Shown: positions 50,339-56,606 of the stretch, piece by piece
Layout: every line of letters begins with the position of its first letter
How positions within the stretch are numbered: the stretch's first letter is position 1
Assembly (NCBI GenBank): GCA_028284805.1
Contig: JANQQZ010000034.1
Span: forward strand, 1-64,000
From: Phycisphaerales bacterium
Lineage (GTDB): Bacteria > Planctomycetota > Phycisphaerae > Phycisphaerales > UBA1924
Length of the DNA stretch: 64,000 nucleotides
Direction of reading: 5' to 3'
Translations under genes and position numbers: made by a program
The notes under the pieces: generated by a model
Told to the model about the DNA's origin: nothing
Databases searched by the model: none
What the model saw: only the letters and a program-made list of their open reading frames with translations

Positions 50339-50443
50339 GACTTGGGTGTTTCGGACGAACGCCAAGTCAAGGCCCCCCCACAACGAACGATCGTTGCCGC
50401 CAAGGTCTGTGACTGAGGCGGCATCAGAATGCAGGGAACGCAG

Positions 50444-51517
50444 ATGAACCGGATCCAGCACCACACCCCGAGCCCGCTTGAGCAGGTCCGACGCCGGCAC
50501 CGCGTCCGCGTCGCCTCCTCGCCCACCGGCACCGGCCCGAAGAAAACCGTCCGCCGGCTCAGCCCGGCCGACGAGCGTCTCCTCCAGCGCCTCCTCCAAG
50601 GCGAGCAGGACTTCATCGACTCGCCCGTCTTCTACGAGGACGAGGCCGAGACCAAGATCTATCAAGAGGTCCCGGACGTCCAGAAGCCGGACACCACCTG
50701 GTACCACCCGGTGATGGACGACCTGTCCTCGTCGACACGGACCCGCACGATGAAGTCGGCGCAGCAGGTCATCCTGACCGGTGCCGAAGAGCGGATCCTC
50801 TTCCACCAGTTCAACTACGCCAGGTACCGCGTCCGCTGCGTGCAGCGTGCCGTCGCCGAGGCGGCCGACAAGCTGCCGACGCCCGAGCAGGCCGAGGACG
50901 TCCTGCGCTGGCACCGTCTGGCTGAGCGGATCCGTGAGCAGATCGCCGAGACCAACCTCGCGCTGGTGCTGGCGATGGCCAAGCGAACCCGCATGAGCGA
51001 GGTGGACTTTGCGGACCTGGTCAGCGAGGGCAACATGGCGCTGCTCCGTGCGGTCGATAAGTTCGACGCCGGGCGGGGCTACAAGTTCTCGACCTACGCG
51101 TGCCGAGCGATCCTGAAGGCCTTCAGCCGTCAGGGCATGAAGCTCAGCAAGTACCGCCAGCGGTTCCCGACCGACTTCGACCCGAAGCTCGAGAAGTCGA
51201 ACTTCCTCGAGACCAAGCGAGCCGATTTCGAGAAGGACGCGGCCAGCGAGGTCCGCGAGATCGTGACCAGCAACCGAGCCGACCTAACCGAGGTCGAGCG
51301 GACGGTCATCGAGCACCGCTTCGGCCTCGAGGCGGGCGAGAACGAGAAGCCCATGACCCTCGAGCAGGTGGGCCAGATCATCGGCGTGACCAAGGAGCGC
51401 GTCCGACAGATCCAGAACAAGGCCATGGAGAAGATCCGCAAGGAGCTCGAGACCAACTTCCTGGGCACGAACCAGGCCGAGGAAGCCGAGGCCGAGGCCG
51501 AGGCCACCAGCGCCTGA
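50444..51517 (+). CDS. Sigma-70 family RNA polymerase sigma factor with divergent region 2.4 and short region 3
   Basis: The 357-residue sigma factor begins at ATG 50444 with AGGGA upstream; ATG 50429 is an alternative. After a Pro/Arg-rich N-terminus, region 1.2/2.1 is seen around ERILFHQFNYARYRVR. Region 2 is ETNLALVLAMAKRT...DLVSEGNMALLRAVDKFDAGRGYKFSTYACR, and region 4 is VERTVIEHRFGL...LEQVGQIIGVTKERVRQIQNKAMEKIRKEL. The -10 reading helix, usually YATWWIRQAITR, here reads YACRAILKAFSR, and region 3 is hardly recognisable. It is therefore not an ordinary RpoD, though region 4 is. A strong terminator follows. The C-terminus is acidic. Confidence 0.87.
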   Translation: MNRIQHHTPSPLEQVRRRHRVRVASSPTGTGPKKTVRRLSPADERLLQRLLQGEQDFIDSPVFYEDEAETKIYQEVPDVQKPDTTWYHPVMDDLSSSTRTRTMKSAQQVILTGAEERILFHQFNYARYRVRCVQRAVAEAADKLPTPEQAEDVLRWHRLAERIREQIAETNLALVLAMAKRTRMSEVDFADLVSEGNMALLRAVDKFDAGRGYKFSTYACRAILKAFSRQGMKLSKYRQRFPTDFDPKLEKSNFLETKRADFEKDAASEVREIVTSNRADLTEVERTVIEHRFGLEAGENEKPMTLEQVGQIIGVTKERVRQIQNKAMEKIRKELETNFLGTNQAEEAEAEAEATSA

Positions 51518-51567
51518 CCCAGCGTCTGACCGGCGTGCGTCCGGGTCAGCCCCTCCGAACCCTCCCG

Positions 51568-51594
51568 CGGCCCGGCTCGTCCGGGCCGTTTTTT
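51568..51594 (+). terminator. Intrinsic terminator after the sigma factor gene
   Basis: CGGCCCGG (51568-51575) and CCGGGCCG (51581-51588) form a perfect 8-bp stem with loop CTCGT, followed directly by six T residues. It ends transcription 50-80 bp past the sigma gene stop. Confidence 0.88.
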
Positions 51595-51747: not shown

Positions 51748-52905
51748 ATGAGCGTTGATTCCGAAGTCCACTCCGACGCGACCGCCGTCGGGCACGTCGC
51801 CCTCCCGAGCCAGGTCAAGCGCGACCCGCACGAGACCCGCTGGGGGGACTTCCTCAAGGCGACGATCAAGATGGAGTCGTCGGACCTGATCATGAAATCG
51901 GGCACGGTGCCCAAGCTCCGGATCAAGGGCAAGCTCAAGCCATTGGACACCACCCCGGTCTCGGCAGAGGAATTCATGTCGATCGCCAAGGCGATCCTGA
52001 CCGCCGAGCAGTTCGAGGACCTGCACAAGTTCGGCTCGGTCGACTTCGCGTACGACTACACCGAGCGCAACCGCTTCCGCGTGAACCTGTTCATGGCGCG
52101 GGGCAAGCTCTCGGTCGCGGCCCGGAACATCACCAGCAACATCCTGCCCTTCGAGGGCCTGCACCTGCCCCCGATCATGAGCGACATCGCGATGCAGCCC
52201 CAGGGCATCGTGCTGCTCTGCGGCGTGACTGGCTCGGGCAAGTCAACCACCATCGCCTCGATGCTCGACTATGTGAACGCGCGCAAGCCCGTACACATCG
52301 TCACGATCGAAGACCCCATCGAGTACGTCTTCGAGGACCGCAAGGCCACGATCAACCAGCGCGAGATCGGCATCGACTGCCTCGACTTCAAGACCGCGCT
52401 GCGTGCGCTCGTGCGTGAGAACCCCGACATCGTGCTGGTCGGTGAGATGCGCGACCAGGAGACGTTCGAGGCCGCCCTCCACGCCGCCGAGACCGGTCAC
52501 CTGGTCTACGGAACGATCCACGCCTCGTCGACGACGCAGACGTTCAGCCGCATCTACGGCCTGTTCGAGCAGGAAGAGATCGAGGGCGTCCGCAAGATCC
52601 TGGCGTACCAGATGCGGGCGTTCGTGTATCAGAAGCTGCTGCCCACGCTTCACGAGAACATCCACCGCATCCCCGCGCTCGAGATCCTGATCAACAACGC
52701 GGTCGTGCGGACGCACATTCTCGAGGGGCGTGAGGGCGAGCTGCGTGAGTACATCAAGGCGATCGAGGCCCAGCAGTCGGGCATGATCGACTTCAACGGC
52801 TCGCTCGTGAAGCTGGTGGAAGACGAGTACATCCACATGCGCGTCGCTCAGGAGTCCTCGCCGAACCTCGACGAGCTGATGATGCGTCTGAAGAAGCTGG
52901 GCTGA
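51748..52905 (+). CDS. Type IV pilus retraction ATPase PilT-like
   Basis: The 385-residue ATPase has an intact set of motifs. Walker A is LCGVTGSGKSTTIASML, the Asp box ITIEDPIEYVF is present, Walker B is IVLVGEMRDQETFEAAL with its Glu, and the His box is VYGTIHASSTTQTFSRI. The N-terminal domain (SDLIMKSGTVPKLRIKGKLKPLD, FRVNLFMARGKLSVAARNI) is that of PilT/PilU. A degenerate AIRNL-like segment (VVRTHILEGREGELREYI) lies near the C-terminus. It would retract type IV pili, although no pilin or pilus assembly gene is near. It is preceded by GGGGAG. The gene after it is a defective relative of the same family. Confidence 0.9.
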   Translation: MSVDSEVHSDATAVGHVALPSQVKRDPHETRWGDFLKATIKMESSDLIMKSGTVPKLRIKGKLKPLDTTPVSAEEFMSIAKAILTAEQFEDLHKFGSVDFAYDYTERNRFRVNLFMARGKLSVAARNITSNILPFEGLHLPPIMSDIAMQPQGIVLLCGVTGSGKSTTIASMLDYVNARKPVHIVTIEDPIEYVFEDRKATINQREIGIDCLDFKTALRALVRENPDIVLVGEMRDQETFEAALHAAETGHLVYGTIHASSTTQTFSRIYGLFEQEEIEGVRKILAYQMRAFVYQKLLPTLHENIHRIPALEILINNAVVRTHILEGREGELREYIKAIEAQQSGMIDFNGSLVKLVEDEYIHMRVAQESSPNLDELMMRLKKLG

Positions 52906-52989
52906 GCCCGGGCGAGGGTCCGAGCGGGCGTCTGCACGGGCTTCGGTCGGCCCGATCCCGGCGGGCGGGCACGCGGATCGGGGTGGACT

Positions 52990-53010
52990 GGTCCGCTACC
53001 ATCGCGGACC
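52990..53010. other. Perfect inverted repeat around TACCAT before the pseudo-ATPase gene
   Basis: GGTCCGC (52990-52996), TACCATC, GCGGACC (53004-53010). It lies 46 bp before the next start and 84 bp after the PilT-like stop. It could be an operator over a -10-like TACCAT, or a T-less hairpin. Confidence 0.4.
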
Positions 53011-53056
53011 GTCCGGCCCAAGCGCCGGCGGCCGAGCCGACGGAGAACCCAGGATC

Positions 53057-54766
53057 ATGCTCAGCCTCGACGCGATCGATGCCGCCACGCTGGCCCAGCA
53101 GGGCCCGCTCACGCTGGTCTCCTGGTGGAAACCGCTCCTCCTGCTGCCCCCGGTCATCGCCTGGGCATGGTTCGTCTCGCGGGTGTTCGACAAGCACGCC
53201 GCGCGGTTCAGCCTCCCTCGCAAGCAGTGGAACCTGATCCACCTGAGCGTCGCGACGATCGCCGTGCTCGCGGCGTTCATCCTCCCTGTGCCCGGCATCG
53301 GCGGCATCCTCGCGGCGCTGGGCCTGCTGGTGGTCGTGCTCGGCGCGGACATCCTGATCTTCGTGCAGATGCACAACAAGGACGAGCGGACGCAGGAGGG
53401 GCACGAGCTCAAGCTCGACTTGTCGGCGATCAAGGAGTCGCGCGAGGCCAAGGCTGCCGCGAAGCAGGCCGGCACCGTCCAGCTGCAGGTCGTGGGCCCT
53501 GGCAAGCAAGCGGTCGCGGTGCCCGACAGCGAGACACCCGAGTACGAGATCCGTGCCAAGGCCGAGGAGCAGTTCATCCCGGCGGCCGAGGGGCGGGCAA
53601 GGCTCTTTGAGTTCACGCCCATCGACAAGGACGCGAACTACGCCGTCACCATGACCGTCGACGGCATCAAGCAGCCCATCGAGAAGATGCCCGGCGCGCA
53701 GGCGATCAAGCTGATCGACTTCTGGAAAGCGGCGGCCGGTCTCGACGTCTCCGACCGCCGACGCCGCCAGCAGGGAATGATCAGCGTCGGACGGGGCGAG
53801 GCCTGGCACAAGCCTGTGCGGGTCACGACGATCGGCGGGCAGGCCGGCCCAAGGCTCACGCTCCTGATCGAGCCGGCCAAGCAGGTGCAGCGCACCGTCG
53901 ACGACCTCGGGCTGCTCGATCCGCAACTCAACGCCCTGCACGAGATCCGCGACGACGTAGGCGGGCTCGTCCTCGTCGCGGCCGGCCCCGCACAGGGGCT
54001 CACAACGTCTCTCTACAGCATCACCACGCTGCATGACCCGTACACGACGATCGTCCAGACGGTCGAGGCCGACGTGCAGGCCGCACTGGAAGGCGCGAAC
54101 CAGAACCCCTTCGACCCGCAGGGCGATGGGGAGTACTCGACGCTTGTCCGCTCGATCCTGCGTCGCGATCCCGACTTCGTGACGGTCGCCGACCTGCCCG
54201 ACAAGGACACCGCGCAGGAGGTCGTGCGCGCCGACCTGAAGCGGACCCGTGTGTATCTCGGGCTCCGCGCCGAGGGGGCGCTGCAGGCGATCCAGGGCTT
54301 CGTCAAGTTCCACGGCGACGCCGATGCTGTCGCCTCGGTTCTGCGAGGTGTGGTCGCTCAGAAGCTCTGCCGCAAGCTCTGCCAGAACTGCCGGGTCGCC
54401 TACCAGCCCAAGCCCGAGATGCTCCAGAAGCTCGGTCTGCCCGCCGACCGCGTCAAGCAGCTCTTCAAGAAGGGCGGGCAGGTGCTGATCAAGAACAAGC
54501 CCGAGCTCTGCCCCGTCTGCGGCGGGGCTGGCTACCGGGATCAGCTCGCCCTTTTCGAGGTCTTCCCGATCGGCGAGGCCGAGCGCGACATGATCCGCGA
54601 CCAGGACTGGAACGGGCTTCGGGCCGAGTTCCGCAAGCGTCAGCTGCCCACGATCCAGCAGGTCGGCCTCCGACGCGCCGTGGAGGGCCTGACCAGCCTG
54701 GAAGAGATCACCCGCATCACATCGTCAAAGAAGCCTGCTCAGCCGGCCGCGAAGCCCACCGCCTGA
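53057..54766 (+). CDS. Membrane-anchored GspE/PilB-like protein with lost ATPase motifs
   Basis: The 569-residue protein has two N-terminal membrane helices (LLLLPPVIAWAWFVSRV and LIHLSVATIAVLAAFILPVPGIGGILAALGLLVVVLGADIL). A GspE/PilB N-terminal-like region follows, then a degenerate ATPase domain. Walker A reads GPAQGLTTS (about 310-318) where GPTGSGKTT is expected: Leu replaces Lys and one residue is missing. Walker B, normally MVGEIRD, reads TVADLPDKD, and the His box is LGLRAE. The C-terminal zinc pairs CRKLCQNC (about 438-445) and CPVCGG (about 488) remain, so the fold is kept but catalysis is doubtful. The start is ATG 53057 with AGGA upstream. It may be a structural or regulatory partner of the PilT-like ATPase. 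Confidence 0.85.
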   Translation: MLSLDAIDAATLAQQGPLTLVSWWKPLLLLPPVIAWAWFVSRVFDKHAARFSLPRKQWNLIHLSVATIAVLAAFILPVPGIGGILAALGLLVVVLGADILIFVQMHNKDERTQEGHELKLDLSAIKESREAKAAAKQAGTVQLQVVGPGKQAVAVPDSETPEYEIRAKAEEQFIPAAEGRARLFEFTPIDKDANYAVTMTVDGIKQPIEKMPGAQAIKLIDFWKAAAGLDVSDRRRRQQGMISVGRGEAWHKPVRVTTIGGQAGPRLTLLIEPAKQVQRTVDDLGLLDPQLNALHEIRDDVGGLVLVAAGPAQGLTTSLYSITTLHDPYTTIVQTVEADVQAALEGANQNPFDPQGDGEYSTLVRSILRRDPDFVTVADLPDKDTAQEVVRADLKRTRVYLGLRAEGALQAIQGFVKFHGDADAVASVLRGVVAQKLCRKLCQNCRVAYQPKPEMLQKLGLPADRVKQLFKKGGQVLIKNKPELCPVCGGAGYRDQLALFEVFPIGEAERDMIRDQDWNGLRAEFRKRQLPTIQQVGLRRAVEGLTSLEEITRITSSKKPAQPAAKPTA

Positions 54767-54848
54767 GCCGCGGAACCCGAGAACGCCTCACCCGTCCCAA
54801 CGAACCGAGCGAACCAGCACGACGCGTCCCGCACCGGGGAGCCCCACC

Positions 54849-56606
54849 ATGGTCCTGAGTCTCATCGCCATCGCACTCGCCGCCGGCATCGCCTACGCCT
54901 GGGTCGTGCGCGGGTTCTTCAGCGCCTTCCTGCACATGATCTGCGTCATCATCGCAGGCGCGTTCGCCTTCGCCTTCTGGGAGATGGCCGCGCTCGCGAT
55001 CCTGAACAACGCCCCCGGCGGCTTCTTCGGTTTCGCGGGAGACGCCGCTTGGGGCATCGGGCTCATCGCGCCCTTCATCGTGAGCCTGGGCGTGCTCCGG
55101 TTCATCGTCGACTCGCTCGTCAAGAGCAACGCCCAGGTCGAGGACGCCTTCAACTACATCGGGGGCGGCGTCTGCGGGCTCGTCTCGGGCGTGATCTCGG
55201 CGGGCATCTTCGTCAACGCCGTCAGCTTCATGCGCGTGCCCGCGGAATTCTTCGGACACCAGCCCGTGACGTACGGGTCGGCCGGCAACTTCCAGGCGAC
55301 GTCGAACCTGCTCGTGCCCGTCGATCGGCTCACCGCGTCGTTCTACGGGCACCTCTCCGAGAACGTGCTCGCCGTGCCCGACCCGCTGGCTCGCTACTAC
55401 CCCGACCTCGCGGTCGCCGCGGGCGCCCAACGCATGAGCGACGGCGGCGGCGACAACCGCAACTCGGTCTCGCCCGACGCCCTCTCGCTTACCGGCGCCT
55501 TCACCGTCGCCAAGCAGAGCGGCAGCGGCGCCTCTGTGCTGGGCGACTTCAACAACCCGGGCGTGCAGCAGGTCGCGGGGCTCGACGGCAACCCCGTGCC
55601 CACCCCCTACGTCGTCGGCTACGTCGTCAGCTTCGGCTCGGGCACCCGCGAGCAGTTCGGACAGATCGTCGTCAGCAAGGGCCAGAGCCGGCTCGTCACC
55701 GAGAACGAGACAACGGGCGAGCGGCTGACCAGCTTCCCCATCGCCATCTCCTCGCAGGCCCGTGCGGGCGAGGACGTGTTCGGGCGGTACCGATACGACA
55801 CCGACGGCACGCACATCGCCTCCGTGGGCGGCGCCGCCGAAGCTCCGATGGCGATCGAGTTCGCCGTTCCGCGCGGGCACGAGCCCGTTGCGCTCTATGT
55901 CAAGAACGTGCGTCTCAACATCACGGGCATTGAGACTCGCGACTACGCCGACGCGGGCGCGCGCGACCTCGACATCCAGACCGGCAACCTGCTCGGGGGC
56001 AGCCGGGCGCAGAACCTCGATACAAGCAATGCCGCGGTTGTCCAGACCCCCAACCAGGGCCAGCCCGCTGGGCTTGTCATGGGCACGCGTCTGCCAAGGC
56101 AGTACGGCCTCCAGGAAGGCCAAACCCGGGGCGTCACGATCAATGAAGACAACCAGATCGACGGCGGTCAGCAGGCCTACGCACTGAGCGAAGTCGGTGT
56201 GCGCGTCGAACGAGCCCTCGCGGTGAACGAGTTCGCGGTCACGAGCGACACCACGATCCTTCAGGTCACGATGTCGGGCGACCCGAGCCAGATCCCGAGC
56301 TCGGTCTTCGGGCCCGCCGCGGTTGCGATCGACAACTCTCAGGCACCAACCCTCGTCGATACCTCGGGGCGCGTCTACCCCGCGATCGGCTATCTCTACA
56401 CCGATCGGGACAAGGCCGAGATCCGGTACACGCCCTCGCAGCCGATGCGGGCGATGAACGAGGGCCCGGGCCTGAGCAGCACCCGCGATGATCAGGAGAT
56501 GATCCTGCTCTTCCGCGTGAGCCTGGGTGTCGAGATCGAGCACCTCGCCATCGGCGAGACCGTCGTGACGAGCTACGACGGGCCGGTCGAGGTCCGACGC
56601 CGCTGA
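54849..56606 (+). CDS. Large membrane protein with CvpA-like N-terminus
   Basis: The 585-residue protein starts at ATG 54849 after GGGGAG. The first 135 residues contain about four membrane helices with the arrangement and patterns of CvpA (SLIAIALAAGIAYAWVVRGFFSAFLHMICVII, LIAPFIVSLGVLRFIVDSLV, GGGVCGLVSGVISAGIFVNAV). The remaining 450 residues are soluble and beta-rich (PVTYGSAG, VAGLDGNPVPTPYV, VVVQTPNQGQPAGLVMGTRLP), probably outside the membrane, and unlike any family I recognise. It lies 82 bp after the pseudo-ATPase on the same strand, forming the third gene of the cluster with pilT. Confidence 0.65.
   Translation: MVLSLIAIALAAGIAYAWVVRGFFSAFLHMICVIIAGAFAFAFWEMAALAILNNAPGGFFGFAGDAAWGIGLIAPFIVSLGVLRFIVDSLVKSNAQVEDAFNYIGGGVCGLVSGVISAGIFVNAVSFMRVPAEFFGHQPVTYGSAGNFQATSNLLVPVDRLTASFYGHLSENVLAVPDPLARYYPDLAVAAGAQRMSDGGGDNRNSVSPDALSLTGAFTVAKQSGSGASVLGDFNNPGVQQVAGLDGNPVPTPYVVGYVVSFGSGTREQFGQIVVSKGQSRLVTENETTGERLTSFPIAISSQARAGEDVFGRYRYDTDGTHIASVGGAAEAPMAIEFAVPRGHEPVALYVKNVRLNITGIETRDYADAGARDLDIQTGNLLGGSRAQNLDTSNAAVVQTPNQGQPAGLVMGTRLPRQYGLQEGQTRGVTINEDNQIDGGQQAYALSEVGVRVERALAVNEFAVTSDTTILQVTMSGDPSQIPSSVFGPAAVAIDNSQAPTLVDTSGRVYPAIGYLYTDRDKAEIRYTPSQPMRAMNEGPGLSSTRDDQEMILLFRVSLGVEIEHLAIGETVVTSYDGPVEVRRR

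Follow-up and report, generated by a model that had tools for sequence, protein, structure and literature searches.

Why would a bacterium keep a degenerate motor ATPase, anchor it in the membrane and encode it beside an intact one? The question is raised by a stretch of 64,000 nucleotides (the window) from a Phycisphaerales metagenome assembly (G000) that is 85% complete. A preliminary description made from the letters alone had noticed three genes in a row there, for an intact PilT, for a GspE/PilB relative with two N-terminal membrane helices and no catalytic residues, and for a large CvpA-like membrane protein, and had suggested an undescribed machine. The three open reading frames are found where it placed them, consecutive and all on the plus strand, with intergenic gaps of 151 and 82 nt. 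The second protein is called TM-GspE here, meaning the membrane-anchored GspE/PilB relative encoded at 53057-54766. The features of the locus are these:

51567..51589, plus strand: terminator-like stem-loop between the sigma-factor gene and PilT (consensus scan; weak)
51748..52905, plus strand: PilT/PilU-type ATPase, 385 aa, without a membrane helix, every catalytic motif intact
53057..54766, plus strand: TM-GspE, a GspE/PilB relative anchored in the membrane, 569 aa, catalytically dead by sequence
53126..53380, plus strand: three-helix membrane domain at the N-terminus of TM-GspE (residues 24-108), predicted orientation N-out/C-in
53981..54007, plus strand: degenerate Walker A of TM-GspE (residues 309-317, AGPAQGLTT), Leu315 at the Lys position
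54380..54520, plus strand: tetra-cysteine (zinc) site of TM-GspE, residues 442/445/485/488
54849..56606, plus strand: CvpA-like membrane protein, 585 aa
54849..55226, plus strand: four-helix membrane part of the CvpA-like protein (residues 1-126; hydropathy and AlphaFold helices)
55254..56603, plus strand: soluble part of the CvpA-like protein (residues 136-585; AlphaFold), a large beta-rich domain, probably periplasmic

It is worth considering where this unit ends. A sigma-70 family factor gene lies upstream of PilT (50429-51517, plus strand). We reject it as a member because it is near the cassette in many genomes of family f1 and in no other family compared; some f1 genomes have it at a distance or on the opposite strand. 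The stem-loop is a possible upstream boundary, though the consensus scan found 4 terminator-like sites against 3.3 expected from shuffles, which is no excess. No pilin, PilC, prepilin peptidase or secretin is found among the cassette neighbours scanned in the window, as the preliminary description had said of pilin, peptidase and secretin. Pilins, PilC, PilB and PilT are encoded on another contig of the same genome (C123). The assembly also holds a second copy of the locus (L051, G000:C58:1-8000), which has a sigma factor, PilT and TM-GspE and is ended by the contig edge. Its PilT is 76% identical to that of the window and its TM-GspE 46%. The composition of this copy fits the genome. It may be a paralogue, though it could also be contamination by a relative's contig.

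PilT is the simplest of the three proteins to place. It scores 375 bits against TIGR01420 (cut-off 319), its best PDB sequence match is a PilT (2ewv, E 6.5e-77), and the motifs GVTGSGKST, VTIEDP, VGEMRD and TGHLVYGTIHASS are all intact, so the earlier reading of this protein holds. It is like the PilT/PilU retraction ATPases in its motifs and TIGR01420 membership. It differs from them in its gene neighbours, which are TM-GspE and a CvpA-like gene and not pilus genes. It may power pilus retraction. By alignment the Walker Lys is present in the PilT of every cassette inspected, whereas TM-GspE loses it. Two PilTs of the class (L127:4413-5537 and L130:8838-9962) have an eroded Walker B and His box (GDMANKEA and GEMRTKDD) and keep the Walker A Lys.

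TM-GspE is harder. Its sole consistent Pfam domain is T2SSE (136 bits against a cut-off of 24.9), and it scores far under every GspE/PilB equivalog cut-off. The AlphaFold model (pLDDT 91.2, from an alignment of 41 sequences) begins with three helices (24-50, 55-75 and 81-108), one more than had been described, followed by N2D and then the C-terminal motor domain. The closest folds in the PDB are PilF (5oiu), PilB (5tsh) and GspE, with a Foldseek E of about 1e-31 and a target-normalised TM of 0.85 to PilB. Thus N2D, the C-terminal RecA-like domain, the tetra-cysteine zinc site and the fold are shared with the GspE/PilB assembly ATPases. Those enzymes have a soluble N1D that docks on GspL/PilM and have no membrane helices, while in TM-GspE the three-helix membrane domain replaces the N1D region. 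Nearly all full-length orthologues show the N-terminal hydropathy peaks. The charge distribution suggests, by the positive-inside rule, that the protein is oriented N-out, C-in. TM-GspE would form a hexameric ring, although the model is of a single chain. In family f47 (L132-L137) there are about 50-100 additional residues ahead of helix 1, and some of these proteins begin like a signal peptide.

The catalytic motifs can be judged by the roles assigned to them previously (PMC5424180). In the window the P-loop reads AGPAQGLTT where the canonical form is GPTGSGKST, Walker B reads VADLPD instead of GEIRD, the His box has disappeared, and the two CxxC pairs remain. The same is seen across the class, for which we collected 161 distinct sequences, 159 of them aligned at the Lys position, with some genomes counted twice via two collections. 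Not one of the 159 has the Walker A Lys; Arg stands there in 110 and Leu in 19. The P-loop Gly (159/159), the Thr/Ser (158/159) and the Asp-box Glu (159/159) are kept. The claim that the catalytic residues are lost is therefore right for the Lys, Walker B and the His box and wrong for these others. The claim that the zinc cysteines are retained is borne out more widely, since every motif-intact homologue has all four and each is present in 156-158 of the 158-159 class sequences. Phycisphaerae TM-GspE differs from GspE/PilB in lacking the Walker A Lys, the Walker B Gly/Arg and the His box, and we infer that it does not hydrolyse ATP. Many canonical assembly ATPases have Arg in the QDGR motif; the motif-intact TM-GspE proteins (L132-L140 and L143) have Ser, Gly, Ala or Asn at that position.

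How often was catalysis lost? Beyond the class, TM-GspE of families f47, f54 and f68 is membrane-anchored and has every catalytic motif, with Lys at Walker A in 10 of 10 sequences, which means that a scaffold role cannot be ancestral. The copies in families f97 and f88 are dead. A gene tree splits TM-GspE cleanly from canonical GspE/PilB (95, starred). The RpoB tree places f97 and f88 beside f47 (100, starred), and a TM-GspE tree built without the catalytic columns agrees with it (91, not starred). When the catalytic columns are included all dead copies come together (93), but this is what convergent decay would produce. Since RpoB and the tree free of catalytic columns both put f97/f88 with f47, two independent losses are the better reading. 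We argue that catalysis was probably lost twice within one inherited module, once in the Phycisphaerae and once in f97/f88. An AU test does not reject one loss (p = 0.33). Loss of catalysis looks like a repeated trend.

The third protein was called CvpA-like. The window protein reaches 17 bits against Pfam Colicin_V (PF02674), under the cut-off of 29.3. Shorter cassette homologues in f54, f68 and f97 pass it (34, 45.3 and 46.1 bits), and 34 of 45 orthologues match at E<=0.01. The window protein shares with CvpA the four N-terminal membrane helices, seen by hydropathy and in the AlphaFold model (2-21, 23-54, 67-90 and 99-126; pLDDT 92.8). MarP consists of a CvpA part plus a periplasmic domain, and the window protein resembles it in having a soluble domain after the CvpA part. 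This domain of 450 residues is probably periplasmic by the positive-inside rule. It differs from the CvpA/MarP-type proteins in that this domain is rich in beta structure and has no counterpart in the PDB (no fold match for the protein at E<=0.001) and in that the gene is linked to PilT/GspE-type ATPases. An internal repeat search of the domain gave 92 columns at P 0.077. Outside the class there are short homologues, which do not have the domain. In family f4 (L052, L053, L054, L071, L107 and L108) the protein has 413-422 aa and an extra C-terminal membrane helix.

A TM-GspE homologue is found in 61 of 61 family and order relatives, and the order is kept there wherever the contig permits, except that some f1 loci have no PilT in the fetched stretch. 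Of 80 genomes with names, most carry the label Phycisphaerales or planctomycete; in this set the CvpA-like gene adjoins TM-GspE in 79 of the 79 loci with room and PilT adjoins in 64 of 76 (in the other 12 it is not adjacent). The CvpA-like gene is present in 116 of 120 class genomes. Most class families fetched show the three-gene order again, with a few loci lacking PilT alongside. The membrane-anchored dead ATPase beside an active one, as first described, is true of the class as a whole. PilT is upstream in the same order in f54, f68, f97 and f88 too, with gaps often of just 2-100 nt. Contigs titled Cyanobacteria, Leptolyngbya and Isosphaera (L180, L205 and L248) bear typical Phycisphaerales TM-GspE genes, so these record names look wrong.

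The same pattern is seen across the phylum. In a sample of 199 genomes, 26 of the 28 with TM-GspE (by hand count, with G221 included) have the CvpA-like protein, as do 0 of the 171 without (Fisher p = 1e-30, not corrected for shared ancestry). For G093, one of the two exceptions, a direct profile search finds the CvpA-like gene. PilT of the cassette type (E<=1e-110) occurs in 87 of the 199, most of them without TM-GspE, and in all 28 with it; in other families it stands alone. The conservation and co-occurrence of the cassette are far beyond chance. The preliminary description had reasoned that homologues with the Walker A Lys and unlinked genes would make both linkage and loss accidental. The Lys is present in f47, f54 and f68, as shown above, but unlinking is only partial and is confined to f47. 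All three genes are linked in f54 and f68, and in f47 two are linked with the third elsewhere in the genome, either a PilT at about 1e-130 (other PilTs score about 1e-97) or the CvpA-like gene. The linkage is thus not accidental.

What then would a dead motor do beside a live one? The preliminary description suggested a regulator or stator, and TM-GspE may be one. Our preferred scenario is tentative, and we rate it as possible but a little short of probable: a membrane-tethered, non-hydrolysing TM-GspE ring docks or gates PilT, with the CvpA-like protein reaching the periplasm. The starting point would be an ancient planctomycete inner-membrane module. TM-GspE would have begun as an assembly-type (GspE/PilB) ATPase, acquired its three-helix anchor, and become bound in evolution to the CvpA-like four-helix protein and usually also to a PilT-type motor. 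It would then have ceased to hydrolyse ATP in the Phycisphaerae, and separately in f97/f88, while retaining the fold, the zinc site and much of the nucleotide pocket. The dead protein would most likely persist as a ring or scaffold for the active PilT, and the periplasmic domain of the CvpA-like protein would connect the cytoplasmic ring with the envelope. Its likeliest output would be to control how type IV pili are retracted or disassembled. Of all this, the order of the genes, their co-occurrence across genomes, which motifs are lost and which kept, the membrane anchor and the predicted fold are seen in the data, whereas the lack of hydrolysis, the ring, its contact with PilT, the topology and the pilus role are inferred. 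There is precedent for a non-hydrolysing family member that acts as an adaptor or signal. In V. cholerae, a PilT whose Walker box is inactive can still support retraction via PilU, and in Myxococcus a PilB mutated in its Walker motif continues to signal (PMC11656802). However, those are engineered mutants of soluble motors, whereas the loss in TM-GspE is natural, class-wide and in a membrane-anchored protein.

One can imagine a scenario where TM-GspE works as a pair with the CvpA-like protein and PilT is only an operon neighbour that serves ordinary type IV pili. Its support lies in the distribution. PilT is more widespread than TM-GspE, so the core consists of TM-GspE and the CvpA-like protein, which PilT often accompanies; TM-GspE is tied most closely to the CvpA-like protein rather than to PilT, and both the adjacency and the co-occurrence of these two are stricter than PilT's. 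PilT is the least constant partner in the cassette, which weighs against docking or gating. Even so, we consider an incidental PilT unlikely, as it sits upstream in the same order, often at close spacing, throughout the class and in four other families, and a PilT of the cassette type is in every TM-GspE genome of the phylum sample.

Another route is an envelope machine without a pilin, in which a motor pair derived from type IV filaments was re-used, for example for envelope transport or for transmitting force through the CvpA-like protein. The empty neighbourhood of the window cassette would fit, as would a TM-GspE with its own membrane domain in place of N1D, and CvpA has been tied to export and bile resistance rather than to pili (PMC6705877). 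But PilC-type T2SSF and PilM are each found in 119 of 120 class genomes and every cassette genome also has pilus machinery, so the module is never alone, and PilT genes are frequently unlinked from pilin genes anyway. Pilus involvement is thus neither shown nor excluded by these counts, and we regard the re-used pair as rather unlikely. We give the same low weight to the boldest version of the idea, a new pilin-independent planctomycete inner-membrane machine whose extension-type motor became embedded in the membrane and twice became a ring which does not hydrolyse ATP and which a separate PilT motor drives or reads, with the CvpA-like protein as its envelope-facing half.

TM-GspE could instead be a nucleotide or second-messenger sensor that binds ATP/ADP but does not hydrolyse ATP, and passes a signal to the envelope via the CvpA-like protein. 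The comparison is with PilB in Myxococcus, which reportedly signals to exopolysaccharide production. That precedent (PMC11656802) and the near-invariance of the P-loop Gly, the Thr and the Asp-box Glu despite the loss of Lys speak for it, as does the frequent replacement of Lys by Arg. The retained residues may be structural, however, the window protein has Leu at the Lys position, and nucleotide binding is putative, so we find a sensor distinctly doubtful. That the module is a decaying or neutral remnant with a merely historical linkage is barely credible: the catalytic motifs are lost and the CvpA-like part diverges fast (29% mean column identity), but open frames are full-length in essentially every complete class locus, the zinc and pocket residues of TM-GspE are invariant, and its mean column identity is 42%.

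Our preferred scenario remains a TM-GspE ring that docks or gates PilT. Searches of the open-access literature for CvpA with PilT, CvpA with Planctomycetes, pseudo-ATPases with type IV pili and Phycisphaerae with PilT found nothing relevant, so the first description's word undescribed stands provisionally for the three-gene module, as regards that literature and genomes within the Planctomycetota. The three-gene set is very old in planctomycetes and points to an unstudied inner-membrane machine. To our knowledge, the secretion-type motor ATPases described in the GspE/PilB family are active enzymes that are soluble. Here a dead member is naturally anchored in the membrane across a class, beside an active PilT and with motif-intact homologues in sister lineages, which offers a comparison for the change from motor to scaffold. 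The cassette further connects motor ATPases with the CvpA family, which is poorly understood. Describing it gives a name to a near-universal module of the Phycisphaerae, in a phylum with an unusual envelope biology for which few explanations exist.
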